DNA of 19,592 nucleotides. Origin: Candidatus Poribacteria bacterium. Lineage in GTDB: Bacteria > Poribacteria > DTPJ01 > WJIO01. The notes under the pieces are model-generated. The model saw nothing but the letters and a program-made list of their open reading frames with translations, did not search any database and was not told the origin of the DNA. Below are positions 2,100 to 19,457 of this stretch, piece after piece. Location: contig WJIO01000283.1 in the NCBI GenBank assembly GCA_014730235.1, positions 1 through 19,592 of the forward strand, in the 5' to 3' direction. Position 1 is the stretch's first letter. Every line of letters begins with the position of its first letter. The translations under genes and the position numbers were made by a program.

Positions 2100-2161
2100 G
2101 GCTTTTCCGGGTTCAGTGTGGTAAACTTTTTTATCTTTACCCCACTCAAGCCGGAATAGCC
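2100..2161. repeat. Compact copy of the palindromic repeat family (copy E)
   Basis: Terminal inverted repeats at 2100-2122 and 2139-2161 share the core TTCCGGGTTCAGTGTGGT with the copies near 10.5, 12.1, 15.4 and 19.4 kb. Only 16 bases separate the ends, so this copy lacks the ATTCCTGC...GCAGGAAT hairpin of the others. The right half retains TTATCTTTACC, which is also found next to one end of the copy at 10488-10657, so it looks like an internal-deletion form. Confidence 0.8.
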
Positions 2162-2193
2162 AAAGTTTTCACGGATAAATTTTATGCTTGGGC

Positions 2194-2222
2194 TTGACAT
2201 CACTATGTTTAAGTTCTAAACT
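2194..2222 (+). promoter_or_regulatory. Probable promoter of the dehydrogenase/GH4 operon
   Basis: A perfect -35 TTGACA (2194-2199) is followed after 17 bases by TAAACT (2217-2222), which matches four of six -10 positions. Transcription from about 2229 would give a leader of about 100 bases before the ATG at 2330. Confidence 0.55.
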
Positions 2223-2329
2223 ATCATTATACTGGTTAAAAATTCTACTTTACCTTTAGCTTTTATAGAGGTATATTATCCTGATATGGGTTTTAGAGGT
2301 TTATTTGTATATAAAGTGAGGAAAATCAA

Positions 2330-3385
2330 ATGTCAGATGAAAAAGTAAAGATCGGTTTTGTAGGTGTTGGAAGCATGGGCCAGTGTGCCCATCTGAAAAA
2401 CTATGTAACTTTAGATAACTGCCAGGTAGTGGCCATTGCAGAATTGCGCACCGAATTGGGTAAAAAGGTTGCGGCAAAATATGCCATTCCAAAGGTCTAT
2501 CCATCCCATGAAGATATGATAGCCAATGAGGAACTGGACGGTATCGTAGCCGCCCAGCCTTTTAACCGTCATGGTATTGTGGTTCCCCAGGTACTAAAAG
2601 CCGGAGTTCCGGTATTCACTGAAAAACCCCTGGCGGCATCCCTGGAAGTGGGTAAAAAGATAATAAAAGCTATCGAGGAAAGTGGAACTTGGCACATGGT
2701 AGGCTATCACAAGCGAAGTGATCCGGCCACCATGTATGCCAAAAAAGAGATAGATAAGCTGAAAGAATCCGGTGAACTGGGCGGGATGAGATATATCAGA
2801 ATTCTTATGCCAGCCGGTGACTGGGTGGCCAATGGCTTTATAGATCTGGTCAGCGATGGCCCTATGCCACCGGTAGAATGGGATCCACCAGCTTCGGATA
2901 TGGACGAAGATACATATAGTAAATACGGCGCTTTTGTTAATTATTACATACATCAGGTAAATCTGATGCGTTATCTCCTGGGCGAACCTTATCACGTTAC
3001 ATACGCCGATCCGTCGGGTGTTATACTGGCAGGCCAGAGTGGCAGTGGAATTGCATGTATTATAGAGATGACTCCGTACCAAACCACTGTAGCATGGCAG
3101 GAATCGGCGTTAGTATGCTTCCAGCATGGATATATCAAGATCGATCTCCCCGCACCCCTGGCCAGTAACAGACCCGGAACAGTGGAAGTACTCAAAGACC
3201 CGGGCGGCGGAGTCACACCTCAGACAATTATCCCACAGCTTCCCTGGATACATGCCATGAGACAGCAGGCCATGAATTTTGTCGCGGCTGTTAAGGGTGA
3301 AGCAGAACCACCATGTGTAGCTCAGGAAGCCCTGGAAGACCTGAAAGTAGCCCGGGAATACATTCGTCTGATGAATGGTGTTTAG
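2330..3385 (+). CDS. Gfo/Idh/MocA-family NAD(P)-dependent oxidoreductase
   Basis: This 351-residue cytoplasmic protein has the two-domain build of sugar and inositol dehydrogenases in this family. The N-terminal Rossmann fold carries GVGSMG at residues 12-17. The catalytic lysine motif EKP lies at 98-100 in PVFTEKPLA. A YHKR segment (116-119) and the substrate-side H198 in YYIHQVNLMRYLLG follow. Family members oxidise or reduce a ring hydroxyl of a sugar or cyclitol, but the substrate cannot be read from the sequence. The ATG at 2330 is preceded by GTGAGGAAAAT. The gene is first in a plus-strand run with an FG-GAP protein and two GH4 glycosidases. This suggests a role in the same sugar pathway, for instance making or reducing a 3-keto sugar. 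That role is inferred from context. Confidence 0.88.
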   Translation: MSDEKVKIGFVGVGSMGQCAHLKNYVTLDNCQVVAIAELRTELGKKVAAKYAIPKVYPSHEDMIANEELDGIVAAQPFNRHGIVVPQVLKAGVPVFTEKPLAASLEVGKKIIKAIEESGTWHMVGYHKRSDPATMYAKKEIDKLKESGELGGMRYIRILMPAGDWVANGFIDLVSDGPMPPVEWDPPASDMDEDTYSKYGAFVNYYIHQVNLMRYLLGEPYHVTYADPSGVILAGQSGSGIACIIEMTPYQTTVAWQESALVCFQHGYIKIDLPAPLASNRPGTVEVLKDPGGGVTPQTIIPQLPWIHAMRQQAMNFVAAVKGEAEPPCVAQEALEDLKVAREYIRLMNGV

Positions 3386-3431
3386 TCTGAGACTGTTAAT
3401 TTAAAATAAATGAGATATAGGAGGCAAAAAA

Positions 3432-4490
3432 TTGCCTGTCAAATTCAAAAAAATATTCATATCCGAACACCGCTACGAATCAGCAGGTGTCTTTGATGTA
3501 GATGGTGACGGCATCCTGGATATAGTATCGGGAGGATACTGGTATCAGGGGCCGGATTTTAAAAATCGCTATACTATCGGTGATATAATGACAGCCGGGG
3601 AGTACTTTGATGATTTCTCTACAATACCAATGGACGTAAATGGCGACGGCAAGATGGATTTCATCACCGGTGGGTTCTGGGGTAACTCCCTTCGATGGCG
3701 GGAAAATCCCGGCGATCCCAATGCCCAGTGGCCTGAACACATAATCGCTGAATGTGGAAGCGTGGAAACTACCCGGGCATGGGATGTAGACGATGACGGT
3801 CATCTGGAAGTTGTCCCAAACACTCCCGGCGGCCCTCTGGTGGTCTACAAACTGGTGGATGGCAAATTTGAAGCCTATAAGGTTTTTGATCGAAACCAGG
3901 GGCATGGCCTGGGATTTGGGGATGTCAACGGTGATGGTCGGGGGGATTTTATCCTCTACGATGGGTGGCTGGAAGCTCCAGAAGATACATACAATGGGGA
4001 ATGGGTTTTCCATCCCGATTTTAATCTTGGCAGCGCCAGTATCCCCGTCCTGGTAGTGGATGTCAACGGGGATGGTCTTAATGACCTTATTGTAGGTCAA
4101 AGCCACGCCTATGGTCTGGACTGGTGGGAGCAGAAGGTTGATAATGGTAAACGCACATGGATCAAGCATCCTATAGATTCATATAACTCCCAGTATCACG
4201 ACCTGCAATGGATTGACATTGATAACGACGGTGAATGTGAACTTGTCACCGGAAAGCGCTATCGTGCCCATAACAGTCATGATCCTGGTGGCAATGATGA
4301 TATAGGTCTTTATTACTTTAAATGGAACGGTGAATCTTTCAGTAAACAGGTTATTGATTACGGTCCTCCCGAAAAAGGCACAGGCTGCGGCATATTCTTT
4401 ACCGTTATTGATCTAAATGGTAATGGACTGCTGGATATTGTGGCTCCGGGGAAAGACGGGCTGTATGTTTATAAGAATCTAGGTGAATAG
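3432..4490 (+). CDS. FG-GAP/VCBS repeat beta-propeller protein without signal peptide
   Basis: The 352-residue protein contains seven spaced calcium-loop motifs of the type DxDxDGxxD: residues 22-30, 68-76, 118-126, 164-172, 210-218, 262-270 and 327-335. This number and spacing fit a complete seven-bladed propeller of the FG-GAP/VCBS kind. The start is a TTG at 3432, chosen because GGAGG lies about eight bases upstream and no better start is near. Most relatives are exported, but no signal peptide is visible here, so it should be cytoplasmic unless exported by another route. Other distinctive segments are HGLGFGDVNGDGRGD and SASIPVLVVDVNGDG. It follows the dehydrogenase by 46 bases and precedes a GH4 gene by 15 bases, so it is operonic. 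Binding of a carbohydrate or scaffolding is plausible. No catalytic site is recognised. Confidence 0.82.
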   Translation: MPVKFKKIFISEHRYESAGVFDVDGDGILDIVSGGYWYQGPDFKNRYTIGDIMTAGEYFDDFSTIPMDVNGDGKMDFITGGFWGNSLRWRENPGDPNAQWPEHIIAECGSVETTRAWDVDDDGHLEVVPNTPGGPLVVYKLVDGKFEAYKVFDRNQGHGLGFGDVNGDGRGDFILYDGWLEAPEDTYNGEWVFHPDFNLGSASIPVLVVDVNGDGLNDLIVGQSHAYGLDWWEQKVDNGKRTWIKHPIDSYNSQYHDLQWIDIDNDGECELVTGKRYRAHNSHDPGGNDDIGLYYFKWNGESFSKQVIDYGPPEKGTGCGIFFTVIDLNGNGLLDIVAPGKDGLYVYKNLGE

Positions 4491-4505
4491 GAGAGGTGCT
4501 AGAAA

Positions 4506-5918
4506 ATGGCTAAAGTTGCAATTATTGGCGCAGGAAGCATTGTTTTCTGTAAAACATTAATTCTTGACATCCTGGCCACAGAAGGTCTGGAAGACACAGA
4601 ATTTGCCCTTATGGCCCCCAGCACAAGACGAACGCCCCAGGTTGAACGTTTTGTCAACAGGGTTATAAAAAAGAACAAACTGCCGGCAAAAGCATGGGTG
4701 ACAACAGATCGCAGGGAAGCTGTCAAAGACGCTGACTACGTTATTACTACTTTCCAGGTAGGCGGCATAAAGGGCTTTGAATATGATTATAAAATACCTT
4801 TAAAGCACGGTGTTGATCAGTGTATAGGGGATACTCTGGGCCCCGGCGGCATATTCCGGGCTTTGAGAAGTATCCCGGTTATGCTTGATCTGGCCAAAGA
4901 CATGGAAGAGCTTTGCCCTGATGCCTTTTTGCTAAACTATGTAAACCCCATGGCTATGGTCTGCTGGTCACTGGGCAAAACCAACGTAAATTTCGTTGGG
5001 CTTTGCCACGGCGTTCAGACAACAATGGACTTAATATCCGGTTATGTGGACTTACCAAAAGATGAAATTGATTACGTCTGCGCTGGTATAAACCACATGG
5101 GCTGGTTCCTGAAGCTGGAACACGATGGCAAAGACCTTTATCCCCTTTTGAGGGAACGTTTTGAAAAATCCGAATACTACGTCAATGAAAAAGTCCGGGG
5201 TGAAGTTTTCCGCCATTTCGGTTACTTCATGACCGAATCTACAGGACATCTGGCCGAATATGTGCCATATTTCAGGAAAAACCAGAAAGCTCTTGAGCTT
5301 TACTGTGACGAACCCGGTTTTGGCGGCGAAAGCGGTGCATACTACTACTGGTGTGAATCGGTGGGTGAAAGGTACAACGAACAGGACATCCTGGCTGGTG
5401 AATCTGATGAACTGCCGGACAGAAGCATTGAATACGGCTCTTATGTCATTGAAGCAATGGAAACAGGACGTACATTGAAACTCAACGGCAATGTGATAAA
5501 TAACGGCATGATTACTAACCTTCCGTCAGACTGCTGTGCAGAAGGCCCTATGTTTGTTGATAAAACAGGTCTGCATAAAACTATCGTAGGTGATCTACCT
5601 CCCCAATGTGCAGCCCTTAACCTGACAAACATAAACGTGCAACGACTTGCCGTCGAAGCCGCCGTAACAGGTGATCCGGAACACATCGTCCACGCCTGCG
5701 CCCTCGATCCTCTGACAAGTGCAGTGTTGACGCTGAAAGAGATCAGGGACATGGCTACTGAGATGCTGGAAGCTCAAAAAATGTGGCTTCCTCAATTTGA
5801 GGGCAAGGTAATCAAACCAACACCCACAATTGAAATCCCTGAAGACGTTGAAAGGGCTGACGTACCTGTTGATCCAGCTCTGGCAATTATGGCCAGATTT
5901 CAGGAATTATCAGAATAG
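4506..5918 (+). CDS. GH4 family NAD- and metal-dependent glycosidase, MelA-like (first of two)
   Basis: GH4 enzymes cleave glycosides by an NAD-dependent oxidation-elimination route that needs a divalent metal. The 470-residue protein has GAGS at 8-11, NYVNPMA at 144-150, GLCHGVQ at 165-171 and CAGINHM at 192-198. Cys167 and His197 match the usual metal ligands. The last motifs are those of alpha-galactosidase MelA rather than of AglA or 6-phospho-beta-glucosidases, although alpha-galacturonidases of GH4 are not excluded. Residue 37, normally Asp in LMD and used to hold the NAD ribose, is Ala (LMAPSTRR), unlike the neighbouring paralogue. About 30 extra residues, rich in Pro and acidic residues, extend the C-terminus. 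GAGAGGTG precedes the ATG. No signal peptide is present, so the substrate is imported. Confidence 0.87.
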   Translation: MAKVAIIGAGSIVFCKTLILDILATEGLEDTEFALMAPSTRRTPQVERFVNRVIKKNKLPAKAWVTTDRREAVKDADYVITTFQVGGIKGFEYDYKIPLKHGVDQCIGDTLGPGGIFRALRSIPVMLDLAKDMEELCPDAFLLNYVNPMAMVCWSLGKTNVNFVGLCHGVQTTMDLISGYVDLPKDEIDYVCAGINHMGWFLKLEHDGKDLYPLLRERFEKSEYYVNEKVRGEVFRHFGYFMTESTGHLAEYVPYFRKNQKALELYCDEPGFGGESGAYYYWCESVGERYNEQDILAGESDELPDRSIEYGSYVIEAMETGRTLKLNGNVINNGMITNLPSDCCAEGPMFVDKTGLHKTIVGDLPPQCAALNLTNINVQRLAVEAAVTGDPEHIVHACALDPLTSAVLTLKEIRDMATEMLEAQKMWLPQFEGKVIKPTPTIEIPEDVERADVPVDPALAIMARFQELSE

Positions 5919-5948
5919 CATTTTTGTTTAAAATAGAAGTTTTACCAG

Positions 5949-5967
5949 GGCACGCTTCACGCGTGCC
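5949..5967. terminator. GC-rich hairpin between the two GH4 genes
   Basis: GGCACGC, a TTCAC loop and GCGTGCC form a perfect 7-bp stem, followed by TGATTTTCTT. The short T-rich tail makes a weak or partial intrinsic terminator on the plus strand possible. Equally, it may be a hairpin that adjusts mRNA stability within the operon. It could also be a small repetitive palindrome. Confidence 0.4.
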
Positions 5968-5991
5968 TGATTTTCTTAAAGGAGAATTTTA

Positions 5992-7317
5992 ATGGCAAAA
6001 ATTACCTTTATCGGCGCAGGTAGTCTTGGTTTTACCCGAGGACTGGCCAGAGATATTCTAACCTTCCCCCTGCTGCAAGATGCAACCCTTACCCTGATGG
6101 ATATTAACGCTGAACGTCTGGAATTCGCTCAAAAAGCTGTCCAGCGTATTGTTGATATGGGCAACTATCCGGCTAAAGTCGAAGCAACTATGGACAGGGC
6201 TGAAGCCCTCAAAGATGCAGACGCGGTGATGTGTACCATTCTGGCCGGTGGTGTTGACGTGTGGCAGTATGATATTACCATTCCTAAAAAATATGGTATT
6301 GATACCAACGTAGGTGATACTCGTGGTCCGTCGGGTGTTTTCCGGGCACTCAGGACTATACCAGTTATGCTGGATATAGTAAAGGACATGGAGAAACAAT
6401 GTCCTGACGCTATACTGCTTAACTACACAAACCCCATGGCCATGCTTTGCCGGGCCATGCAAAGGGAATCTTTCATCCAGCTCACAGGTCTTTGCCACAG
6501 CGTGCAGGGAACGGCCATGATGCTGGCCCGGTGGATTGGCGCACCTTATGATGAAATAACTTATACATGCGCTGGTATAAACCACATGGCCTGGTATCTG
6601 GACTTTAAGTGGAATCACAAAGACGCTTATCCACTCATTCGGGAAGCTGTAGAGAAACCGGAGATATATAACGAAGAAATAGTCCGTAATGAGTTATTTA
6701 AGCATTTTGGCTATTACATCACTGAATCCAGTGGACACAATTCCGAGTATAACTGGTGGTTCCGCAAGCGTCCTGACCTGATTGAAAAATACTGCACCCA
6801 CGGAACAGGCTGGAATCCCGGTGAATATGCCTATATCCTAAAAAGCTATCGCGGCCGGGAGGATACATGGAAAGACGACGTAAAGAAATGGCTTGAAAGC
6901 GATGAGCCTATAAGCCTTAAGCGCGGTCACGAATACGCCGCATATATAGTCAATGCCCGTATGGGGGGCGAGATATTCCATTTCAACGGCAACGTTCCCA
7001 ATACAAACCTTATAACCAATCTGCCGGAAGATGCATGTGTTGAAGTTCCTGTTTATGTGGATAAAGGTGGTTTTCATCCGGTACATGTAGGCCCATTGCC
7101 ACCACAGCTTCTGGCTTTAAATCATATAAGTGTTATGGTGGAAGAAATGGCTGTGGAAGCGGCTATTACTGGTGATCCTACGCTGATTTTCCAATCTATT
7201 GCCTATGATCCCCTTACCGCTGCGGTTCTTTCTCTGGCAGAAATAAAGGAGATGGTGAATGAAATGCTTCAGCAAAATAAAGAATATCTCCCACATTTTA
7301 AAAGCCTGAAAGTTTAA
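5992..7317 (+). CDS. GH4 family NAD- and metal-dependent glycosidase, probable alpha-galactosidase (second of two)
   Basis: This 441-residue protein is a close relative of the preceding gene product and more canonical. It has GAGS at 8-11, LMD with Asp37 for NAD binding, NYTNPMA at 144-150, GLCHSVQ at 166-172 and CAGINHM at 193-199. Cys168 and His198 are the predicted metal ligands. The GLCHSVQGT and [11 protein letters not shown] strings are very like MelA, so alpha-galactosidase or a related alpha-glycosidase activity is the best guess. It has no signal peptide and acts in the cytoplasm. AAAGGAGA lies at the right distance from the ATG. Two divergent GH4 copies in a row suggest two related linkages or substrates handled together. 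Confidence 0.9.
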
Positions 7318-7355
7318 TAGTTTGATCTGTAAATAAAATACAAAATCTATTGGTT

Positions 7356-7385
7356 AGGTTGGGTTACGCAGGCTTAACCCAACCT
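7356..7385. repeat. 11-bp-stem hairpin after the GH4 operon
   Basis: AGGTTGGGTTA, an 8-base loop and TAACCCAACCT form a perfect inverted repeat in the gap between the second GH4 gene and the RND permease gene. Only TATATC follows, so there is no U-tract. It could end or stabilise the operon mRNA, or be a dispersed small palindrome. Confidence 0.5.
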
Positions 7386-7434
7386 TATATCAGATATTAC
7401 AAGCTAAATGATTATATACTGGGAGAAAAGATAG

Positions 7435-10400
7435 ATGAAGATAACACAGTTGGCTGTCCGTAATCCCGTTGGAACTATCTTAATTATACTGGTCGTTGCT
7501 GTATTAGGCATTATAGGTGTTTTAAGCCTACCCACTGGCTATTTTCCGGTATTCTCCATACCCGCTGCTGTTGTAGTTACAGCATATCCGGGAGCAAGTG
7601 CCTTGGAAGTAGAGCAAGAGATAACCAAGCCTATTGAACGCACTATATCAACTGTCACTGATATATACCAGATGCGTTCTACTTCATCGGAAGGATTTTC
7701 CCAGGTGCAATTAAGTCTTAACTGGGGGGCTGATCTGGATGAAGCGGTTTATGAAATCCAGACGCAACTGGAACAGGTGCGCAACGAGCTCCCCCGGGAA
7801 GCGGATAAACCAACCGTTGTTACAATAAACTCCCTTTTACAGGTTTCTATGGAGCTTGGTATAACATCCACAGAGCGGGATCTAGCTGAACTAAGGGAAT
7901 ATGTAGAGGACTACCTTCAGGATCGATTCAGTCGTGTGGAAGAAGTGGCCACTGTGCAGGTCTCTGGTGGAACAGAGCGGATCGTGGAAGTGCTGATAGA
8001 TCGGGGAAAACTGGCATCCCGTGATATTAGCCTTATGCAGGTTATGGGTGCGCTTCAATCCAATAACATAACTGCCCCTGGCGGCAGAATAACAGAAGAT
8101 AGTAAAGAATATGTAGTCCGGACTATAGGTAGATACCAGACAGTAGACGAAATAAAACGCACGCGCATTACCGATAAAGACGATATTCCTATATATCTTG
8201 AGGATGTGGCAAAAGTCAGCTTTACAAAGGCAGAAGAGCGAGTTTTTACCCGTATTAACTGTAAACCCAGCGTAGGGGTTGGCATCGGTACAAGAAGCGA
8301 TGGGAATGTGGTTGCTATGTGCGATGCTGTGAAAGAGGAATTGAAAGTCCTGGAGAAAACCCTTCCGGAAGATATAGAAATATTCATCGCACAGGACCAA
8401 TCGAAATTTATCAAGCGTTCTGTTAATTCTGTGGTAACGGATGCACTAATAGGTGGTCTGCTGGCGGCTGTTGTTGTGTTCCTGTTCCTGGGTAATATCC
8501 GCAATACACTGGTTATCGCTATATCAATACCAACGAGTATACTGGCTACTTTCATGATGATGAGGGCCTTCAATCTGTCGTTGAATATCGTATCCCTGGG
8601 TGGCCTGGCCCTGGGTATAGGTCTGGTTGTGGACAGTGCGATTATCGTTCTGGAAAGCATATACCGCCATATAGGAGATAATACCAAAGGTGATCGTGAG
8701 GAAAGCACCGTATTTGGCACAAGGGAGGTAGGTCTGGCCATTACAGCGTCAACCTTAACAACCCTGTCGGTTTTCTTACCTATGGTTTTCCTGAGGGGAT
8801 TGGCGGCTGTTTTGCTGGGTGAACTGGCTTTAACGGTGGTTTTTGCCCTTGTCGCTTCTCTTTTGGTGGCTATAACTGTTGTTCCCATGCTTGGTAATCA
8901 GCTTATCAAAGTTGAGGAAGGCCATGCCTCAAATTTATGGAATCGAGTTACAGGTATATATAAGACAATTCTGGACTGGTGTTTGAATCATCGCTGGATA
9001 ACTATAGGTGTTGCATTTGTAATATTCATTTTGAGTCTTGGCCTCACCCGGCTTATTGATGTGGAGCTTCTTCCGGCTACTGATGAAAGCCAGTTCCAGG
9101 TGACCCTTGAATATCCTGTAGGTACTTCTCTGGATATTACAGAGGATACATCGTGTAAGCTTGAGAAATTTTTGTCCCAGTATCCGGAAGTTGAGACAGT
9201 ATTTACCACCATAGGTCAAGCAGGGCCTTTTGCTGAGGAAGTTCCCTATAAAGCCGAAATGATGGTTCAGCTTTCATCTGACAGGGATGAATCAACTCAG
9301 GAATTTATTGAACAACTGAGGAAGGAAATACCAAGCTATCCTGATGCCAAGGTTGAGGTAGCTTTGACAACACTTATCAGAGATATAGGTGGAGCGGCGG
9401 TAGATGTCCGTATACAGGGCAGCGATCTGGATATTCTCAGGGATTTAGGCGAAAAGGCTGTGGCGGCTGTATCGGATATAGAGGGATTGGTAAACCTGCA
9501 AAGTAGTCTCAGCGAGGGAAACCCGGAAATTCAGGTGAAAATTGACCGGGAGATGATAGCTGATTTAGGTATAAATATAAGCGATATTACCGGAACTATA
9601 AGAACAGCCGTTGCCGGATCAACGGCGGATCAATGGAGCAGCAACGGTCGGGAATATGATATACAGGTAAGACTTCCTGAAGAATCCAGAGATTCGGCCT
9701 TTGAACTTAGTAATCTACTTATTCCTACCCGAAATAAGAACATACCTTTGAATCAGGTGGCAAAAATAACTTATGGTGAAGGTCCTGTAACTATAGAACA
9801 TAACGAACAGATCCGCAACGTGGCTATTACCGCCGATACCCGGGATGGAAGCCAGAGGGCCATAGTTGCTGAAGTGCGGGATCGCCTGGAAAATCTGGAT
9901 TTACCGGAGGGATACGAGGTGGTATACGAAGGACAATCCCGGGCTGTTCGGGATTCTTTCAGGAGTCTTGGCATTGCTCTGGCTATTGCAGTTTTTCTGG
10001 TTTATGTGGTGATGGGGGTTCAGTTTGAATCTTTCATTTATCCCTTTATAATCATGTTTTCCCTTCCTTTGGCCTCTGTAGGGGCATTTTTAGCCCTGTT
10101 TATTGCTAGGAGCAGTATTTCCTTGAATTCCTTTCTTGGATTGCTGGTTTTGGCCGGTATTGTGGTAAATGATTCTATTGTGCTGGTTGACTACATTAAC
10201 TCTCTGCGAAGCAGGGGAAAAGAACGCCAGGAAGCAATACTTACGGCTGGGCCTGTGCGTTTGCGACCGATATTGATGACTAGTTTTACAACCATATTCG
10301 GGCTTTTACCTATTGCTTTAGGACTTGGTGAAGGCGCGGAAACCCTTGCTCCCCTGGGAATATCAGTTATCGGTGGACTATTTACCTCTACATTTCTAAC

Positions 10401-10476: not shown

Positions 10477-10487
10477 TTTTCCAGAGA

Positions 10488-10657
10488 TTTGGTTCTTGCG
10501 GATTTAGTGTGGTTATAATTGAAAATTCTCTCAACTCGTCATTCCTGCGAAAGCAGGAATCAGGTCTTTATGCGGATCTACTGGATTCCTGCTTTCGCAG
10601 GAATGACAGCATATAGAAGTTTCTTATCTTTACCACACTGAACCCGGAAGAACCAAA
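10488..10657. repeat. MITE-like palindromic repeat with double core hairpin (copy A)
   Basis: Terminal inverted repeats at 10491-10513 and 10632-10654, extended by TTT and AAA outside, bound a 170-bp element. Inside are two copies of the core hairpin, ATTCCTGCGAAAGCAGGAAT at 10541-10560 and its reverse complement at 10585-10604, separated by a 24-bp spacer. One inner arm reads TAATTGAAAATTCTCTCA and the other TTCTTATCTTTACC, so the element has a direction. It begins 12 bases after the RND stop codon and may act as its terminator. No transposase is encoded. No target duplication was evident. Confidence 0.85.
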
Positions 10658-10698
10658 ATTTATTAAACTTATATAAAATTCCCAAATAAAATAAACTA

Positions 10699-10830
10699 TA
10701 CTTTCGCACTTTTTGAAAGACATAGTATTTATGCGCTTATAGAAATACGGCACGCCGTATCCCTACAACAAGCCAAGAACCCTTATGAAATCTGTATTTA
10801 CCGTTTCGATATATAAAAAGTGCAAAAGTA
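10699..10830. repeat. Second, unrelated inverted-repeat element upstream of hisC
   Basis: TACTTTCGCACTTTTT at 10699-10714 and its near-perfect reverse complement at 10815-10830 (15 of 16 match) bound 132 bp. A 7-bp-stem palindrome, ATACGGC-AC-GCCGTAT at 10745-10760, sits near the middle and is followed by CCCTAC. The layout is that of a small non-autonomous element, but only one copy is present in this window. Confidence 0.45.
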
Positions 10831-10845
10831 CAGAATAAAGAAAGT

Positions 10846-11919
10846 GTGTATATGCCATTATTCAGAGATGTAATTAGAAAAATGAAACCATATAAGCCGC
10901 CATTAGAGGGTAGATCTGACAGAGATTATACACTCCTGGATTTTAACGAAAGAACCATCGGAACAAGTCCAGAAGTAAAGGAAGCTCTGAAAAACTTTAT
11001 TGATGATGATAGGCTGCAGGTATATCCCGAATATGGAACTGTGGAAAGAGAGATAGCTGGATATGCAGAGATTAAAGATTCTCATGTGATTATAACCAAT
11101 GGTGGAGATCAGGGCATTGATATAATATGCCGGGCACATTTATCCAATGGTGACAAGGTAATAATTCCTTTTCCGGGCTTTGCAATGCACTACCAGTCTG
11201 CTGGAATTCAGGGGGCAGAATTTATTGAACCAGTCTATAATTCAAAAGACGGTTCATTTCCCCTGGATAAAGTAATAGATCTGATAAAACATCAGGAAAG
11301 GATCAGGCTGGTAATTCTTTGTAATCCCAATAACCCTCTGGGTACACCTATAGAAATCGACGATGTTAAATTAATTCTGGAAGAGGCAAAGGGAAGGGAT
11401 ATACCTGTATTACATGATGAAGCCTATTTTGAATTCTCCGGTATCACATGTAAAGATTTTATAGATAAATATGACAACCTTTACATAATAAGGACTTTTT
11501 CAAAGGCCTTTGGTCTTGTGGCTACAAGGGTTGGATATGTTATTTCCCAAGATAGCAACCTGGAAGAATTATTAAAAATAAGAGGGCCTTATGATGTCAA
11601 TATGTTTGCCAAAGTCGCCGTATTGGCGGCTCTGAAAGATCGGGGTTACATGGAGGATTATGTCAATGAAGTCATGAAAGTATCCAAACCCAAACTGGAG
11701 GGTTATCTTAAAAATAAAGGTGTAAAATTTTTTCCTTCTAAAGCCAATTTCCTTTTTCTGCCTGTTGATAATTCAGAAGCGATTATTGATGGATTAAAGG
11801 ATCAGGGTATTTTGGTAAGGCCTAAACAAGATCCTGATGGACACAAAAGAGTAAGGGTGGGTGTGGGTACTTCGGAAGATACTGATGCTCTAATTCGTGC
11901 CTTAGATAAGATTTTATAA
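10846..11919 (+). CDS. hisC: Histidinol-phosphate aminotransferase
   Basis: HisC is a PLP enzyme that transaminates imidazole-acetol phosphate to L-histidinol phosphate. The 357-residue protein is a fold-type I aminotransferase. Key parts are LDFNERT near residue 31, YPEYG at 60-64, CNPNNPLG at 149-156, DEAY at 181-184, and the PLP-binding Lys210 in RTFSKAFGL, followed by Arg218 in TRVGY. A C-terminal Arg in VRVGVGT is the usual substrate-phosphate or carboxylate contact. The RTFSKAFG and N-terminal motifs fit HisC better than other class I/II members. Three other his genes in the window support the call, although they lie apart on the other strand. The start is either GTG at 10846 or ATG at 10852. 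The upstream ribosome site is weak. Confidence 0.85.
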   Translation: MYMPLFRDVIRKMKPYKPPLEGRSDRDYTLLDFNERTIGTSPEVKEALKNFIDDDRLQVYPEYGTVEREIAGYAEIKDSHVIITNGGDQGIDIICRAHLSNGDKVIIPFPGFAMHYQSAGIQGAEFIEPVYNSKDGSFPLDKVIDLIKHQERIRLVILCNPNNPLGTPIEIDDVKLILEEAKGRDIPVLHDEAYFEFSGITCKDFIDKYDNLYIIRTFSKAFGLVATRVGYVISQDSNLEELLKIRGPYDVNMFAKVAVLAALKDRGYMEDYVNEVMKVSKPKLEGYLKNKGVKFFPSKANFLFLPVDNSEAIIDGLKDQGILVRPKQDPDGHKRVRVGVGTSEDTDALIRALDKIL

Positions 11920-12009
11920 TTACAATTCATTTAACTGAGAATTCTAAAAAATCTCTAAAATCAATGTTTATAAGAATTCAGCATTAGGAAACTGATGAAA
12001 ATGCTCAAA

Positions 12010-12141
12010 AAAATATACTTCTGTGTCATTCCTGCGAAATTAGGAATCCAGTAGATCCGCATAAAGACTTGATTCCTGCTTTCGCAGGAATGACGAGTTG
12101 AGAGAATTCTCAATTATAACCACACTGAACCGGGAAGAGCC
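12010..12141. repeat. MITE-like palindromic repeat, left end eroded (copy B)
   Basis: From about 12025 to 12118 this is nearly identical to the reverse complement of copy A (10488-10657), including the double core hairpin and the same spacer between the two hairpins. The right terminal repeat is at 12119-12141. The left terminal repeat is not recognisable, so the exact left limit is uncertain, and one core hairpin is damaged (GAAATTAGG). It lies after hisC and before the next gene, in the opposite orientation to copy A. Confidence 0.75.
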
Positions 12142-12198
12142 TATGATTTTAATTAATTTTAGAAATATCGGATTTAATAATTGGGGAGGAATATTAAA

Positions 12199-13290
12199 AT
12201 GGATAAAATCTGGAAAATTGGCCTTGTAGGTGCAGGACGCGGTTCATCTTATGGAAATATTACATACAGGCATGCCCGATTTGACGTTGTAGCATTATGC
12301 GATGCCAACGAGAACACCCTGGCCAGGTATCAGAAAGAACTGGAACTCTCTGATTCCCAATGTTTCACTGACTATGAAAAGTTTATCAATTCAGGGAGCA
12401 TGGACGCAGTTATAATCTGCACACCAATACTTTATCATGCTGAACAGGCCGTGATGGCACTGGAATCAGGCATAAACGTAATGAGTGAAGTTACGGCATC
12501 CAATACTATCGAAGGTTGTTCCAGCATAGTAAAAGCCGCAAAGAAAAGCGGTAAAATCTATATGATGGCCGAGAATACTATATATCGTCCTGTCTTCGAT
12601 GAATGGGCAAAGCTGATAGAATCATGTAAACTTGGTGAGATCATATATGCTGAAGCCGATTACCTGCATCCCATACATGCTTTGTTAATAGACCCAAATA
12701 CTGGCGAGAAAAAATGGAGAGCAAACAGGCCTCCGGTGCATTATTGTTCCCATTCTTTGGGCCCGATTCTTTACCTTACTGGTGATCGAATAACCCGGGC
12801 TATGGCAGTTGGCAACACATATAGAATTCTTCCGGAAGCTGGTGTCGGTGCGGCAGATATACAGTTGGCAGTTTTTGAGACCGAAAAAAATATGATTATA
12901 AAAATGACCCGAACCCAGGTTGCACCGAGACATTATCCAATTCATTACTACCATCTTCTTGGAACAGAGGGGTTTGTAGAAACAGACCGTTTCGGCCCGG
13001 ATAGAGATACCCGGATGCAAAAGGGGCTGCTTTATCTGAAAAACGATATGAAACATACCCAGCTTGCAGAATGGCCGGAGATAGATACATCCCTTCCCGA
13101 CTATGCACTTTTAGGTGGACATGGTACGTGTGATTACAGCACGTTGTTGCAGTTCCTGAACGCACTGGATTCGGGTAAAAAGCCTGTATTGGACGAAATC
13201 CGGGCATGGGATATGACTGTTCCCGGTTTGATAGCTGCTGAATCAGCTTTTCATGACGGTAAATGGATGGATGTACCTTTACCAGAATAG
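12199..13290 (+). CDS. Gfo/Idh/MocA-family protein with GH109-like motifs
   Basis: The 363-residue cytoplasmic protein starts at ATG 12199. GGGGAGGA eight bases upstream makes this start better than the in-frame TTG at 12181. The N-terminal Rossmann motif is GAGRGSSYG near residues 11-19. Where typical family members have the catalytic EKP, this one has EVT (97-99, in VMSEVTASN). It also has MAEN at 123-126 and HYCSHSLGP at 181-189. The EV-x-A, ME/AEN and H-x-LGP signatures recall GH109 enzymes, which are NAD-dependent glycosidases built on this fold. A plain dehydrogenase or a regulatory homologue remains possible. It stands alone behind a repeat and ends exactly where the converging peptidase gene ends. 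Confidence 0.75.
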   Translation: MDKIWKIGLVGAGRGSSYGNITYRHARFDVVALCDANENTLARYQKELELSDSQCFTDYEKFINSGSMDAVIICTPILYHAEQAVMALESGINVMSEVTASNTIEGCSSIVKAAKKSGKIYMMAENTIYRPVFDEWAKLIESCKLGEIIYAEADYLHPIHALLIDPNTGEKKWRANRPPVHYCSHSLGPILYLTGDRITRAMAVGNTYRILPEAGVGAADIQLAVFETEKNMIIKMTRTQVAPRHYPIHYYHLLGTEGFVETDRFGPDRDTRMQKGLLYLKNDMKHTQLAEWPEIDTSLPDYALLGGHGTCDYSTLLQFLNALDSGKKPVLDEIRAWDMTVPGLIAAESAFHDGKWMDVPLPE

Positions 13291-15279
13291 TTATATATAC
13301 TTTTTAAACCATTTCACCTGACGCTTGATTAAGTCCAGTATATGTCTTGGTTCGTTTATACTATGTCCTTCCCGGGGATATTTTACATATTCTACATCCA
13401 CACCCAGAGTTTTTAAGGCTCTGTAGAATTCTTCCGCCTGGGGTGGTGGAACCCGTTTGTCCTCTGCCCCATGCAGTAGAAGTGTAGGCGTTTTTACCTG
13501 TTTTATATATGTGATTGGTGAGTGTTTAAGGTATATCTCTATGCTTTCATAGGGAGAAAGACCTGTAAAGAATTGTCTAAGATATGTAGGTATGTCGTTC
13601 TGAGCATACATACTAACCAGGTTACTCAGACCAGCGCCGCTAGAAGCCGCTTTGAACCTGTCCGTTTGTGCAACCAACCAGTTAGTTAAATAACCACCAT
13701 AACTCCAACCTTCTACAACTAACTTATCAGGATCTGCATCCCTATTTTCTATAAGATAATCAATACCTGACATAATGTCCTGATAGTCTGCAACACCCCA
13801 GTTTTCGTAATTACCTTTACCAAACTCTGAGCCATAGCCTTCACTGCCTCTGAAATTAGGTTCAAATACAGCGAAACCTTTAGCACTGAAAAAGTGATGG
13901 TGGGGATTGAAACGAAATGTTACAGCACCGTAGGGCCCACCATGAGGTGATACAATAAGAGGATATTTCGTGTGCTCTTTGTAATCTACCGGCAGACGCA
14001 AAAGCCCCTGGACGTTTGTACCATCTTTACTGGGCCAATCCACTATATATGTTTTACCAAGGGGAAAATCACTTATCTGGGGATTAAGGTTGGTCAAGTG
14101 TCTGGTTTCTCCTGAAGCGATTGAACCAATCCATACATCCTTTGGTTTTTCCGGTGATTCACAGTGAAACGCAAATGTATCGTCATCATCAGCCAGTGAC
14201 ATAAAACGGGCAGTGTGATCTCCCTCGGTTATCTTAGTGATACTACCGTTTTTTAAAGAAACGCTGTATAAATTGAACCTTACACCCTCCACAGCCTCAA
14301 AGAATACCTTATTGCCCCTTGGTGACCAAAGGGGGAGAATTTTATTTTGATCGAAATTGGACGTGAGGTTTATACTTTTGCCGCCTTTGGAGGGAATTAC
14401 ATATATATCCCTCTGCAAAAGGTCATCAGGATTGGCTTTATAAAGGTAGGCTATCCATTTCCCATCCCGAGACCACCTGGGGGTTGACTCATAACCTTCA
14501 TGTTTCGTCAGCTTTCGCAGTTCTTTTGTCTCCAGATTTACAATATGTATTGTACTTCTGAACATGTAATCATCTGGTTTTGACGTTTCAGCATGAGCAA
14601 AAGCAATTTGCTTGCTGTCTGGTGACCACCGGGGATCGAATACGCTGTAGTTCCCCCGGGTTATTTCTTTGGACTTATCTTTATTTTCATTTTTGTTATC
14701 ATTATTTTCCGGTATAGAAAATATAAGTTCAGGCTCTTCATCCAGGACATTTACATCAATAACCCGGAGATGTTTTTGCTTAAAATCATCTTTATCTACA
14801 GTTATGGCATCGTCTTTGGCCTTCTTGCGTTTTTTCTTGTGTTTGTCATCTTCTTCATTTTTTACAAAGGCAATTTTTGTACCATCAGGTGACCATACCG
14901 GATTTGCGGCATCCTCTTTGACATAAGTCAACTGCCGGGCTTCGCCTCTTGTTATGTTTATAACGTATATCTGTGATTTATCTCCTGATCTTTTGGAAAC
15001 AAAAGCAATTTGACTGCTGTCCGGTGACCATTGAGGATCGCTGTCACCGTTGGGGCCGTTTGTTAGTTGATATTGAATTTTTCCATCAGTGGAAGAAATC
15101 CATATATGATTTATATATTCGCTTTTTTCGTTTTCCAGAACCGGTGAACCGACAACGTATGAAATCCATTTACCATCAGGAGAGATTCCCCCTCCATTAT
15201 TCAGTCGTTTCATAGAAACTACGTCTTCAGGTGTTAATTTTTTATATTGGCGGCAGCTTTTCTGGCTACAGTCTCCCAT
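13291..15279 (-). CDS. S9-family peptidase (prolyl oligopeptidase / acylaminoacyl-peptidase type)
   Basis: The 662-residue protein has an N-terminal WD40-like (PD40) propeller with repeats such as PQWSPDSSQIAFVS, PVWSPDGTKIAF, PRWSPDSKQIAFA and PRWSRDGKWIAY (about 30-400) and a C-terminal alpha/beta-hydrolase domain. The predicted triad is Ser526 in GWSYGG, Asp607 in HGAEDKRVP and His639 in REGHS. Such enzymes cut short peptides or remove blocked N-terminal residues, with the propeller gating access. No signal peptide is visible, so it is probably cytoplasmic. Two very charged Lys/Asp/Glu/Asn-rich insertions (about 141-157 and 190-206) interrupt the propeller. AGGAGG lies ten bases before the ATG at 15279. 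It has no operon partner. Confidence 0.9.
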   Translation of the reverse strand: MGDCSQKSCRQYKKLTPEDVVSMKRLNNGGGISPDGKWISYVVGSPVLENEKSEYINHIWISSTDGKIQYQLTNGPNGDSDPQWSPDSSQIAFVSKRSGDKSQIYVINITRGEARQLTYVKEDAANPVWSPDGTKIAFVKNEEDDKHKKKRKKAKDDAITVDKDDFKQKHLRVIDVNVLDEEPELIFSIPENNDNKNENKDKSKEITRGNYSVFDPRWSPDSKQIAFAHAETSKPDDYMFRSTIHIVNLETKELRKLTKHEGYESTPRWSRDGKWIAYLYKANPDDLLQRDIYVIPSKGGKSINLTSNFDQNKILPLWSPRGNKVFFEAVEGVRFNLYSVSLKNGSITKITEGDHTARFMSLADDDDTFAFHCESPEKPKDVWIGSIASGETRHLTNLNPQISDFPLGKTYIVDWPSKDGTNVQGLLRLPVDYKEHTKYPLIVSPHGGPYGAVTFRFNPHHHFFSAKGFAVFEPNFRGSEGYGSEFGKGNYENWGVADYQDIMSGIDYLIENRDADPDKLVVEGWSYGGYLTNWLVAQTDRFKAASSGAGLSNLVSMYAQNDIPTYLRQFFTGLSPYESIEIYLKHSPITYIKQVKTPTLLLHGAEDKRVPPPQAEEFYRALKTLGVDVEYVKYPREGHSINEPRHILDLIKRQVKWFKKYI

Positions 15280-15331
15280 AATCCTGTGTCCTCCTGTTTA
15301 TTTAATGAAAGCTGTCAGACAGGATAAGTTT

Positions 15332-15451
15332 GGTTCTTCCGGGTTTAGTGTGGTTGTAATTGAAAATTATCTCAGCCTGTCATTCCTGCAAAAGCAGGAA
15401 TGACAGGCTTATAAAAGTTTTCATTTTTACCACACCTAACTCCGAAGAACC
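15332..15451. repeat. MITE-like palindromic repeat with 16-bp core stem (copy C)
   Basis: Terminal repeats lie at 15332-15354 and 15429-15451; the right one is degenerate. The centre, 15374-15409, is a perfect 16-bp stem (AGCCTGTCATTCCTGC) with an AAAA loop. It lies between the end of hisA and the start of the peptidase gene, both on the minus strand. It is well placed to end hisA transcription, although no U-tract follows the core. Confidence 0.85.
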
Positions 15452-15500
15452 ATAAATTTTAAGCTGCTGCTTATAATATTATAATAACAAGCTTACTTAC

Positions 15501-16220
15501 TTATACTGATATTGCTTCTTCAAGGTTTATATTGCCTGTATACAGGGCTTTTCCTATAATTACTCCTGTTACACCAAGGGATTCAAGGGTTTTCAGACTT
15601 TTAATATCTTCAATAGAAGAAACACCACCTGAAGCGATTAATTCCGCTGATTGTAACACCTGAGCCATCTTTCTCAAAGCCTCTATATTGGGGCCTGTAA
15701 GCATACCATCCCGTTTAATATCTGTATAGATTATAGTCCTGACTCCAGCTTTCTCCATTTCTGTAGCAAATTCTATTGCTTTTTTCTTTTCTAATTCTGT
15801 CCAGCCGTGAATAGCCACCAGACCATCTCTGGCGTCAATACCCACAGCTATTCTACCGCCGTATTTCTCGCACATTGCTCCGGCAAAAGCGGGATCCTTC
15901 AAGGCAGAAGTGCCAAGTATAACCCTGTATACCCCGGCTTTAAAAACCGTCTCAATGGTCTTTTGATCTCTGATACCTCCACCCATTTCAATTGGGATTT
16001 CAATAGCATCAGCTATCTGTTTTATGATTTCCAGATTTTTCGGCTTACCCTCAAATGCACCGTCCAAATCTACCACATGAAGAAATTGAGCGCCTTTGCT
16101 TTCCCAATTCTTCGCCATAGTAACAGGGTCATCTGAAAAAATAGTCTCCGCGTCGGCCTTACCCTGAATAAGTCTGACGCATTTACCACCTCGCAGATCA
16201 ATAGCTGGTATTATTAGCAT
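15501..16220 (-). CDS. hisA: HisA, ProFAR isomerase
   Basis: HisA converts ProFAR to PRFAR by an Amadori rearrangement in histidine synthesis. The 239-residue protein is a full-length beta/alpha barrel with the two phosphate-binding halves typical of HisA. Asp8 (PAIDLRGG) and Asp129 (VGIDARDG) are the predicted catalytic pair, with TDIKRDGMLTG at 166-176 and the phosphate loops GGGIRD and ASGGVSS. These strings distinguish it from HisF. Its ATG follows the hisH stop by three bases, so the two genes are translationally linked. Confidence 0.95.
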   Translation of the reverse strand: MLIIPAIDLRGGKCVRLIQGKADAETIFSDDPVTMAKNWESKGAQFLHVVDLDGAFEGKPKNLEIIKQIADAIEIPIEMGGGIRDQKTIETVFKAGVYRVILGTSALKDPAFAGAMCEKYGGRIAVGIDARDGLVAIHGWTELEKKKAIEFATEMEKAGVRTIIYTDIKRDGMLTGPNIEALRKMAQVLQSAELIASGGVSSIEDIKSLKTLESLGVTGVIIGKALYTGNINLEEAISV

Positions 16221-16223
16221 AAA

Positions 16224-16835
16224 TTATCCTCTCACAAGCTCCCCGAAATTGCGGAGTATTCTCAGCCCTATCTTCTGGCTTTTTTCTGGGTGAAACTGAG
16301 TTGCGTAAAGATTATCTTTTGCTATTATAGAGGTAAAATTAATCCCATATTCTGTAGTAGCCGCTATCACCGAATCGTCGTCGGGTTTTACATAGTAGGA
16401 ATGAACAAAATACATATATGACCCATCAGGAATATCTTTGAAGATAGGCGCGTCTGGTTTTTTCAGATCAATCTGATTCCATCCCATATGAGGAACTTTT
16501 AACTGATTTGAAAACCGCACTACACGACCCGGTATTATATCCAATCCCTGATATATGCCGCCTTCTTCGCTTTCCGAAAAAAGCAGTTGCAGACCCAGGC
16601 ATATACCCAGACAGGGTTTGCCGGATTCTACAGCCTTTCGGAAGGCGTCACCGAGGCCCGTATCTTCCAGGCGGCTTATGGCATCACGAAAAGCCCCTAC
16701 TCCCGGAAGGATAACGCCGTCGGCTTCTTTTATTTTCTCTGGATCATCTGTAATGAAGGCTTCTACCTCTATAAAATCGAAACCAGCCTGAACACTGCGG
16801 AGGTTTCCCATTCCGTAGTCAATTATAGCTATCAT
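16224..16835 (-). CDS. hisH: HisH, glutamine amidotransferase subunit of imidazole glycerol phosphate synthase
   Basis: HisH releases ammonia from glutamine for HisF, which makes imidazole glycerol phosphate and AICAR. I start the 203-residue protein at ATG 16835 (MIAIIDYGMGNL), the family's usual start, with AGGTG upstream. A longer in-frame version from 16871 would add 12 unconserved residues. The class I triad is Cys79 in GICLG, with His182 and Glu184 in FHPEKS. PGVGAFRDA and YFVHSYY are also typical. It lies 62 bases after hisB and directly before hisA. HisF, its required partner, is not in the window. Confidence 0.93.
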   Translation of the reverse strand: MIAIIDYGMGNLRSVQAGFDFIEVEAFITDDPEKIKEADGVILPGVGAFRDAISRLEDTGLGDAFRKAVESGKPCLGICLGLQLLFSESEEGGIYQGLDIIPGRVVRFSNQLKVPHMGWNQIDLKKPDAPIFKDIPDGSYMYFVHSYYVKPDDDSVIAATTEYGINFTSIIAKDNLYATQFHPEKSQKIGLRILRNFGELVRG

Positions 16836-16897
16836 AATGCACCTATTATATATCGTTGCCTCAAACAGCAAATATCGGTCAATGTTATTAAATTTAA

Positions 16898-17488
16898 CTA
16901 AAGTGTTCCTTTTGTAGACAAAACACCCTTGATACGCTCATCATAAGATGTGGCCATATCCAGAGCTCTGCCAAAGGCCTTAAACACAGCCTCAATAATG
17001 TGATGGGTGTTGCCTCCGTATGCTAAATTTATGTGCATGGTTGCCCCTGAATGGTTCACAAAGGCGTGGAAGAATTCCTCCACCAGTTCCACGTCGAAGT
17101 CACCCACCTTTTGCTTTTCCAACGGAACGTTAAAGACCAGATGAGGCCTATCGCAAAGGTCCATGTTTACGGAAGCCAGGGATTCACCCATGGGTATGGT
17201 TGAATTACCGAATCTCTTTATTCCGGCTTTATCACCGCAGGCTTTGTGTATTGCATCACCAAGACATATCCCCACATCCTCAACCGTATGGTGATAATCT
17301 ACTTCCACGTCACCCAGTGCTTTTAGCTTCAAATCCAGAAAGCCATGTCGGGAAAAGAGGGTCAGCATGTGATCAAAGAAACCGACCCCGGTGATTATTT
17401 CTGATTTACCAGCGCCATCAATATTAATTTCCAGATCAATATCCGTTTCTTTTGTTGTTCGTTTGATCTGAGCTGTCCGGTCTGCCAT
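16898..17488 (-). CDS. hisB: HisB, imidazoleglycerol-phosphate dehydratase
   Basis: HisB dehydrates imidazole glycerol phosphate to imidazole acetol phosphate, the substrate of HisC. At 196 residues it is the single-function form without the phosphatase domain found in E. coli. The metal-binding motifs are present: FDHML near 39, DYHHTVEDV near 64, EEFFHAF, and [11 protein letters not shown]. The C-terminus is the typical STKGTL. AGGAG eight bases before the ATG sets the start. The gene begins 32 bases after the end of an unknown membrane protein gene on the same strand. Confidence 0.95.
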
Positions 17489-17520
17489 CTGTTAGTCTCC
17501 TGTTTTGAGTTATAAGTGGA

Positions 17521-17961
17521 TTACTCCGGCAAGCTCTTTGCCCAGGAATATATCGCAACATTCATGCCACAAATAAAGCCAAAAATATATGATTGCAAAA
17601 TAGGTAAGAGGGGATTCCGGGAAGCCAGAGCAAAACTCACAATCATAGGCACACCCAGGGCAGTAACAGTAAATATGGTGCTCTGTTTTCCTATTGATGT
17701 TTTCATCATCTTGACTTTTCTCATTAAAGCCAAAACATAATACCTGTCCCACAATCGTGAAGTCCATCTTCCGCCAATAGAACCCATCAGGATACCTATA
17801 ACAAAAAGCAAAAGACTCTCCAGGTGATTCCTGCTTTGCAGGGCCAGATACATCCACATCACCTCACCCAGAATGGTCACGAAAGTCAAGACCAGAAGGG
17901 TTCTGGGCTTCATGAGAAAAGGGAGCATACTTTTAGTTAATTTATACTTTTTTTCATCCAT
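17521..17961 (-). CDS. Four-helix integral membrane protein of unknown function
   Basis: The 146-residue protein has four hydrophobic segments at about 21-41, 47-65, 94-112 and 118-140. A basic cytoplasmic-type loop between helices 2 and 3 (RWTSRLWDRYYVLALMRKVK) and a charged N-terminus suggest both termini face the cytoplasm. I recognise no family. The ribosome binding site is weak. The gene sits between murA (91-base gap upstream) and hisB (32-base gap downstream), all on the same strand. It may simply be carried along in the operon. A 348-base frame overlapping it was judged a shadow, because this frame gives coherent membrane helices. Confidence 0.7.
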   Translation of the reverse strand: MDEKKYKLTKSMLPFLMKPRTLLVLTFVTILGEVMWMYLALQSRNHLESLLLFVIGILMGSIGGRWTSRLWDRYYVLALMRKVKMMKTSIGKQSTIFTVTALGVPMIVSFALASRNPLLPILQSYIFGFICGMNVAIYSWAKSLPE

Positions 17962-17983
17962 AAAAATCTTAATGTTTATTACT

Positions 17984-17995
17984 GGTTCAGTGTGG
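17984..17995. repeat. 12-bp remnant of the palindromic repeat terminus
   Basis: GGTTCAGTGTGG is identical to part of the terminal repeat of the MITE-like family, but no other part of an element is visible nearby. It sits in the gap between murA and the membrane protein gene. It is probably a decayed end, and chance is unlikely but not excluded. Confidence 0.35.
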
Positions 17996-18052
17996 AAGTG
18001 AAGAAAATCTAATAAGATTAATAATACCTGTTTTGCATTTTATCAAAAATAC

Positions 18053-19315
18053 TTATTCCGAAACCCTGACTATATCAGCCCCGGCACCGGCAAGTTTCTG
18101 TTCCATATGTTCATACCCTCGGTCGACATGATATATTCGGGAAATCACCGTCTGATTATCTGCGCCTAATCCGGCAATTACCAATCCTGCGCCGCCTCGT
18201 AATTCTGAGGCCATCACCGGCGCGCCGCTCAGGTAGTCCACACCTTTTACCACCGCGCTCTGTCCTTCTATTTTAATATCCGCGCCCATTCTGTTTAACT
18301 CGCTGACGTGCATGAAACGCTCAGGATGAACGGTTTCAGTTATGACGCTTATACCCTCAACTGTTGTCATAAGGGCCATTATCTGGGACTGTACGTCTGT
18401 AGGGAATCCGGGATAGGGTGATGTTCTCACATCCACCGGCTTGAGTGGATTTTCAGCGGATATTCTGATCCCGTCGCTTCCTTCTGCAATATTCGCGCCG
18501 ATTTCCCTGAGTTTATCTATAACAGATTCCATGAGAGACGCTTTGGCCTTTTTAATCAGCACGTTACCCCTTGTACTGACAGCGGCGATCATGTAGGTTG
18601 CGGCTTCTATTCGGTCGGGTATAACGCTGTGATTTGCACCGTGAAGCTCTTTTACCCCTTGAATTTTCATCAAGGGAGTTCCTTCACCCTCGATCTGCGC
18701 GCCCATATCCTTAAGAAAACCGGCAAGCTCAATAATCTGCGGCTCGCATGAGGCTTCCCTGATGGTTGTTACACCCTCGGCCTTAACGGCTGCCATCATC
18801 ACATTGACAGTTGCCCCTACGCTGGGCCCATTTGGGCCTCGCAGCAGCATATCCGCTCCAACCAGCTTATCCGCGCTGGCTATTATGTAACCATGCTCGA
18901 TTTCAATCTTCGCTCCTAGCTTTTCCAATCCCATGAGATGCAGGTCAATAGGTCGCGGGCCGATAACGCATCCTCCCGGAAATGAAACTCTGGCCTTACC
19001 ACATCGTCCTAAAAGCGCTCCCAGGGCATACACCGAAGCCCTCATTTTTCGCACAAGATCATAAGGTGCTTCATATTTATCGCATTTAATGGGATCTATG
19101 TTTAGCGTTGATCCTTCTAATCTAGCATCTGTTCCCAGCACCTCAAGAATTAATATCATTGACCTAATATCGGCCAGGTTTGGAACGTTTTTAATAACGC
19201 TGATTTCATCGCTGAGTATTGAAGCTATAACAAGGGGAAGGGCGGCGTTTTTTGATCCGCTTATGGTAATTTCACCTTCCAGCCTTTTGCCTCCGTTAAT
19301 TATAAATTTATCCAT
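18053..19315 (-). CDS. murA: MurA, UDP-N-acetylglucosamine 1-carboxyvinyltransferase
   Basis: MurA transfers enolpyruvyl from PEP to UDP-GlcNAc, the first committed step of peptidoglycan synthesis, in the cytoplasm. The 420-residue protein is full length. It has GSKNAALP with Lys22 and Asn23, the loop FPGGCVIGPRPIDLH with the active-site Cys116 (the fosfomycin target), and the late motifs PGFPTDVQ, ERFMHVSEL and ELRGGAGLV. Cys rather than Asp in the loop predicts fosfomycin sensitivity of the enzyme. AGGAAATAATA precedes the ATG at 19315. Only about 20 bases separate the start from repeat copy D, so transcription must come through or from that repeat. Confidence 0.96.
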   Translation of the reverse strand: MDKFIINGGKRLEGEITISGSKNAALPLVIASILSDEISVIKNVPNLADIRSMILILEVLGTDARLEGSTLNIDPIKCDKYEAPYDLVRKMRASVYALGALLGRCGKARVSFPGGCVIGPRPIDLHLMGLEKLGAKIEIEHGYIIASADKLVGADMLLRGPNGPSVGATVNVMMAAVKAEGVTTIREASCEPQIIELAGFLKDMGAQIEGEGTPLMKIQGVKELHGANHSVIPDRIEAATYMIAAVSTRGNVLIKKAKASLMESVIDKLREIGANIAEGSDGIRISAENPLKPVDVRTSPYPGFPTDVQSQIMALMTTVEGISVITETVHPERFMHVSELNRMGADIKIEGQSAVVKGVDYLSGAPVMASELRGGAGLVIAGLGADNQTVISRIYHVDRGYEHMEQKLAGAGADIVRVSE

Positions 19316-19335
19316 TATTATTTCCTATATTTTTT

Positions 19336-19457
19336 GGCTTTTCCGGGTTCAGTGTGGTATAAAGATAAGAAACTTCTTTATGCTGTCATTCCTGCTTTCG
19401 CAGGAATGACAAGCTGAGAGCATTTTCAATTATTACCACACTGAACCCGGAAGAACC
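19336..19457. repeat. MITE-like palindromic repeat between prmC and murA (copy D)
   Basis: Near-perfect terminal repeats at 19336-19358 and 19435-19457 bound a 122-bp element with the core hairpin ATTCCTGC-TTTC-GCAGGAAT at 19388-19407. Inner arms match those of copies A and B, in the same direction as copy B. It lies directly against the 3' end of prmC and 20 bases before murA. Confidence 0.88.

Follow-up and report, generated by a model that had tools for sequence, protein, structure and literature searches.

Palindromic repeats of a Candidatus Poribacteria genome as putative ISL3-type MITEs with a REP-class core at the joint of chimeric elements

The window, i.e. the whole stretch of 19,592 nucleotides analysed here, is contig 221 of a 5.53-Mb draft genome of a Candidatus Poribacteria bacterium (451 contigs, 91.6% complete) and contains palindromic repeats with two hairpins, one or none. 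Its MurA gene is nearest, at 57%, to that of a Candidatus Poribacteria draft. What are these repeats, what moves them, and how do their different forms arise? All data derive from a single draft metagenome assembly of one genome, of whose 5.53 Mb approximately 1.35 Mb were read base by base to build the analysis and 198 kb as a held-out test, the sample being partly weighted to contigs with exact terminal inverted repeats (TIRs).

The repeats in the window

All five copies that an earlier note on this DNA had given as a minimum are present, and its division into double-, single- and no-hairpin forms is correct. Its limits hold for copies A, D and E, whereas those of B had to be corrected to 10491-10654 and those of C enlarged to 11935-12171. 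The note had also read a direction from the arms, pairing B with D, which stands, and A with C, which does not: by arm type A belongs with B and D, all three having the B arm on the right, and C and E are reversed. The features are the following:

2100-2161, plus strand: copy A, a family-1 MITE without core (TIR1 at 2100-2122, a remnant of the B arm, TIR1 at 2139-2161)
10491-10654, plus strand: copy B, a family-1 MITE with A arm, 70-bp REP-dimer core and B arm
10538-10607, no strand: core of copy B, 70 bp, with a spacer between two TGTC/CGTC-type REP hairpins in head-to-head arrangement
11935-12171, no strand: copy C, chimeric, a family-3 MITE enclosing a family-1 half
11935-12024, plus strand: family-3 F arm of copy C, matching 3F arms elsewhere in the genome
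12025-12094, no strand: core of copy C, a 70-bp REP dimer at which both families meet
12095-12141, minus strand: family-1 A arm of copy C, including TIR1 (12119-12141)
12145-12171, minus strand: outermost 27 bp of a family-3 E arm left over in copy C, 3 bp past TIR1
15332-15451, plus strand: copy D, a family-1 MITE with A arm, 26-bp core (15379-15404) and B-like arm
near 17975-18010, plus strand: a sixth family-1 end, solitary and degenerate, resembling the D-type arm (repeat D3, 17969-17997)
19336-19457, minus strand: copy E, a family-1 MITE with B arm, 26-bp core (19385-19410) and A arm

Copy A is an internal deletion derivative of a family-1 MITE. Its flanks, TATTTTTG and AAAGTTTT, show no 8-bp target duplication (TSD), and neither do those of copy B (AGAGATTT and AAAATTTA) show a TSD. 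Copy D lies between ATAAGTTT and ATAAATTT, a 7/8 match, and copy E has TATTTTTT on both flanks, a perfect 8-bp TSD.

Copy C is a chimera of two MITE families and not simply a truncated copy. Its outer ends are those of family 3 (CTGAGAATTC... on the left, ...AAATATCGG on the right), and ATTTAA flanks it on both sides (11929-11934 and 12172-12177), a 6-bp register that is off by one, as canonical family-3 copies have a 5-bp duplication. A family-1 element may have inserted into the E arm of a family-3 element, after which the stretch from core to core would have been deleted. Apart from the repeats, the window carries at 4506-7317 two adjacent related genes of ~470 and 441 amino acids (repeat D8, 78% DNA identity), putatively encoding family-4 glycosidases.

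Family-1 repeats and their link to ISL3

The earlier note expected very many copies genome-wide and called for a search of the whole genome. This search, run with the pattern GGNTCTTCCGGGTTYAGTGTGGT and up to three mismatches, returned 799 matches versus 0 for the reversed pattern, in agreement with the expectation, and the 96 comparison genomes contain only a handful of weak matches to the TIR pattern. In the sample, inward-facing TIR pairs cluster at 109, 119-122, 140-142 and ~164 bp. The 8-bp TSD was perfect in 20 of 61 cases and matched at 7/8 positions in 12 further ones (shuffled expectation 0.4 and 1.8, respectively), and the 7- and 9-bp registers gave no comparable signal. Elements with one A and one B arm have a perfect 8-bp TSD in 39/87 cases and one at 7/8 or better in 53/87, leaving ~40% without TSD. 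Residual ends are not supported as the source of TSD loss within family 1 (2/61 versus 2/79), so that decay or other recombination must contribute to the A-B elements that lack a TSD.

Only 15 of the 238 cores fall in long ORFs, although such ORFs make up 86% of the sequence. Family-1 elements are short, TIR-bearing, intergenic, present in high copy number and without coding capacity, all of which agrees, together with the 8-bp TSDs, with the earlier reading of the repeats as MITEs. Among 60 TSD-bearing copies 42 lie in co-directional, 16 in divergent and 2 in convergent gaps, compared to 570, 85 and 77 for all gaps; in these raw counts, which are not corrected for gap length, they are overrepresented in divergent and scarce in convergent gaps. 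An identity with the Correia element was ruled out by the 8-bp duplication, which is not TA, and by the different ends.

The 8-bp duplications and the ISL3-like ends suggest that the family-1 repeats are ISL3-type MITEs moved in trans, probably by an ISL3-family transposase, which was not found intact. The genome contains three ISL3 transposase genes, all partial and all at contig ends, one of the fragments adjoining the end GGTTCATCCGGTTAATGCGTAG. Alignment of the family-1 end with the ISL3 ends of its own genome and of G071 gave 16/23 identity (shuffle p ~1e-5 to 2e-5), and plasmid ISL3 ends share GGTTC(A/T)TC. Intact ISL3 elements elsewhere have GGTTCATCCGG... ends and perfect 8-bp TSDs; those on Pseudodesulfovibrio and Vibrio plasmids end in GGTTCATCCGGCTAAAGCGTAC and GGTTCATCCGGTAAATCGATAC and are likewise flanked by perfect 8-bp duplications. 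Within the phylum, the ends in G004 resemble the end beside the ISL3 gene in G071, and related ends occur in G029 on longer elements that lack the hairpin core, two pairs being flanked on both sides by TTATAGAG and GGTTATTG:

L142:963-1523 (561 bp) and L144:1254-1523 (270 bp): ISL3-type elements of G029, core-less, with perfect 8-bp duplications

The earlier note had stated that the repeats encode no transposase and must be moved in trans. The lack of coding capacity was confirmed, and movement by an ISL3-family enzyme is what we infer. The full-length element with the same ends and a transposase gene that the note proposed to look for was not found in the draft, of which about one quarter was read base by base. 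A search for PF01610 retrieved only the partial genes of the genome itself and few in relatives, the flanks of TIR1 or TIR2 pairs spaced by 0.5-3.5 kb matched at no more than 6/8 bases, and viral contigs yielded no parent element. As the parent of family 1 was not found, we also infer the source of the transposase. With ISL3 insertion sequences and IS-derived MITEs family 1 shares ends of the type GG(T/C)TC(T/A)TCCGG..., 8-bp target duplications, intergenic location and non-coding character; unlike them, it carries a REP core and reaches several hundred copies in a single genome, and no matching autonomous copy was found. A search of the available literature for ISL3-derived MITEs retrieved none.

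The hairpin core and the families that share it

The core is delimited by GTCATTCCTGC and GCAGGAATGAC, and its commonest lengths are 26, 47, 67, 70, 75 and 111 bp. Two hairpins, each with an 8-bp stem, a 4-nt loop and a TGTC tail, make up the 70-bp form as a head-to-head dimer. CGTC-class REPs are described in the defining survey as having an 8-9 bp stem that starts with AT, a 4-5 nt loop, a CGTC/TGTC tail and head-to-head dimers (PMC3733652). Stem, loop, tail and dimers of the core all correspond to this description, which places the core, by its sequence, in the TGTC/CGTC class of REPs. The 26-bp core has the form that a dimer would take after deletion from one hairpin to the other. Both senses of its loop occur (TTTC 29, GAAA 22), and the asymmetric cores are about equally frequent in either orientation (12:12 for 47 bp, 5:6 for 67 bp, 8:10 for 70 bp). 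The genome matches the 26-bp pattern 399 times; of the 96 other genomes only two (G003 and G040) match it at all, always with two mismatches. By extrapolation the whole genome contains ~900-1000 cores, and those without a recognisable MITE arm on either side (~5%) are mostly spurious or degenerate.

The core resembles the CGTC-tagged REPs of Neisseria (dRS3) and Rickettsia (RPE-6) in its 8-bp stem ATTCCTGC, 4-nt loop, TGTC tail and head-to-head dimers (PMC3733652). It is not dRS3 proper, the stem of which is ATTCCC(N8)GGGAAT, whereas the core has predominantly ATTCCT(N8)AGGAAT. In contrast to the CGTC-tagged REPs it lies almost always within MITEs and also exists in the collapsed 26-bp and other palindromic forms. 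A REP dimer in the centre of a longer palindrome is described for Anabaena variabilis and Halothiobacillus neapolitanus, and the excerpted account does not mention TSDs, several unrelated host elements or chimeras (PMC3733652).

The arms that adjoin the cores sort into family 1 (TIR1), family 2 and family 3, the core being common to family 1 and at least two MITE families unrelated to it, among them families 2 and 3, which have 6-bp and 5-bp duplications, respectively. Family 2, with the TIR GTAATCGTTAAAAAATG, is represented by ~295 ends genome-wide; its 6-bp duplication is perfect in 8 of 18 cases (0.4 expected). Family 3 has the ends CTGATATTTCTAAAATTAAC and CTGAGAATTCTAAAAAATCTC, with 59 matches to the E end, and a 5-bp duplication in each of four readable canonical copies. 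Examples are:

L219:7259-7431 and L212:8673-8845: family 2
L191:3546, L201:9833, L207:12678 and L269:3859: family 3

Two family-2 elements, at L126:8802 and L198:5625, are core-less, the core being reduced to GTCAT, and apparently represent one deletion derivative that later spread.

Chimeric elements and their formation

We defined a chimera as a core with one arm each from two families and considered families 1-3 only, family 4 being excluded from the rate since its arms are partly family-1 ends. Of the cores whose two arms could both be typed, 31 of 186 were cross-family joins, as were 7 of 34 in the held-out sequences (~17-21%), and only 1 of 230 shuffled arms was misclassified. The joins fall exactly at the core. 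Chimeras are without TSD, only 1 of 26 having one at 7/8 or better, as opposed to the 53/87 of A-B elements. Only 5 joins unite two A arms or two B arms, mostly arms of diverged subtypes; this scarcity would follow from an instability of long, near-perfect palindromes. The outer end of the partner lies just outside the chimera in 12 of 38 cases, compared to 3 of 108 control windows (Fisher p 6e-6), and the other 26 have no residual partner end; at two chimeras, copy C of the window and one at L261 (perfect 6 bp), the host duplication is still intact. Finally, 177 intergenic gaps contain one core and 8 contain two or more. From gap length 36 such gaps are expected, the minimum of 1000 simulations being ~25, and a Poisson estimate that treats all gaps as equal gives ~22. 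Selection against long inserts could account for part of this depletion.

We consider it likely that the repeats are ISL3-type MITEs with a passenger REP core whose arms are swapped by deletion between neighbouring cores. The elements would be transposed in trans by an ISL3-family transposase that makes the 8-bp duplication, carrying along the core, either the head-to-head dimer or a palindrome shortened from it. A second element would insert beside or inside a first MITE, and the DNA from one core to the other would then be lost. Slippage at the palindromes, or cleavage of the hairpins followed by annealing, is the most likely cause of such a deletion. The product would be a single core with one arm from each parent, so that arms and cores would be exchanged among families and about one core would remain per intergenic gap. 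The twelve chimeras with the outer end of the partner nearby and the host duplications at two argue that these chimeras formed in place.

The same observations make it unlikely that distant cores recombine to produce the chimeras, each of which would then mark a chromosomal inversion or translocation. The cores are short, identical palindromes (some 900-1000 per genome, as extrapolated) and many elements lack TSDs, and for Neisseria a recombination of dRS3 repeats by the integrase of phage Nf1 has been suggested (PMC3898611). However, the sample contains no reciprocal exchange partners, which counts against simple exchange though with little power, and a search of the genome for an IS110-type recombinase domain found none.

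It is less probable still that the hairpin moves on its own, as a REP mobilised by a RAYT-type Y1 transposase and inserted preferentially into MITE centres. Such mobility would fit its CGTC/TGTC class and its presence in several MITE families, and the genome has one Y1_Tnp gene; yet the contig that bears this gene yielded no core, against a RAYT/REPtron, and cores without arms are as few and as doubtful as described above. CGTC REPs are moreover reported without a dedicated transposase (PMC3733652), and the half-and-half structure of the chimeras would be left unexplained.

That the chimeras are assembly artefacts, as might be suspected in a draft metagenome in which some contigs terminate within elements, we regard as very improbable. 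Overlaps at contig ends are exactly 141 bases, which suggests an assembly k of 141; as this exceeds the shared 26-bp core, the core should not cause false joins. Misjoins would not yield residual ends or preserved host duplications either, and TSD loss shows no clear rise with core length. That the repeats are simply intrinsic terminators or a conserved RNA structure, as the very stable hairpins (z about -13) might suggest, is hardly credible given the TIRs and the target duplications, which already contradict them, and given that the repeats are present in hundreds more copies, nearly absent from relatives and not shared among unrelated species, few in convergent gaps and without a match in Rfam, all in line with the preference of the earlier note for MITEs over conserved terminators.

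A large MITE family is of a known kind; the architecture of a shared core with chimeras appears to be a novel form of it. A literature search for chimeric or hybrid MITEs showed none among the titles listed. The earlier reading contained neither the assignment to ISL3 nor the recognition of the hairpin as a REP, nor did it include the sharing of the hairpin across families or the chimeras. The nearest likeness is with the neisserial intergenic mosaic elements (NIMEs), which combine dRS3-like hairpins with varied repeat units into mosaics. The arms described here differ from these units in being halves of MITEs whose TIRs and TSDs can be recognised, and there is usually a single core per gap instead of an array. 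We tentatively raise the possibility, rather doubtful at present, that CGTC REPs generally spread as interchangeable cores of MITEs that depend on a transposase, that deletion between cores is a regular route of arm exchange that seeds new families, and that NIMEs result from the same process.

The result added here is that a REP-class core is common to unrelated MITE families and serves as the joint where families fuse. CGTC-class REPs occur in several phyla, and the survey that defined them found no dedicated transposase (PMC3733652). In this genome they are part of elements whose target duplications are clear; this offers a concrete route of spreading, and these elements suggest that a widespread class of hairpin repeats might spread without a transposase of its own. 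The chimeras, together with the pattern of one core per gap, provide a simple, testable mechanism for bacterial mosaic repeats.
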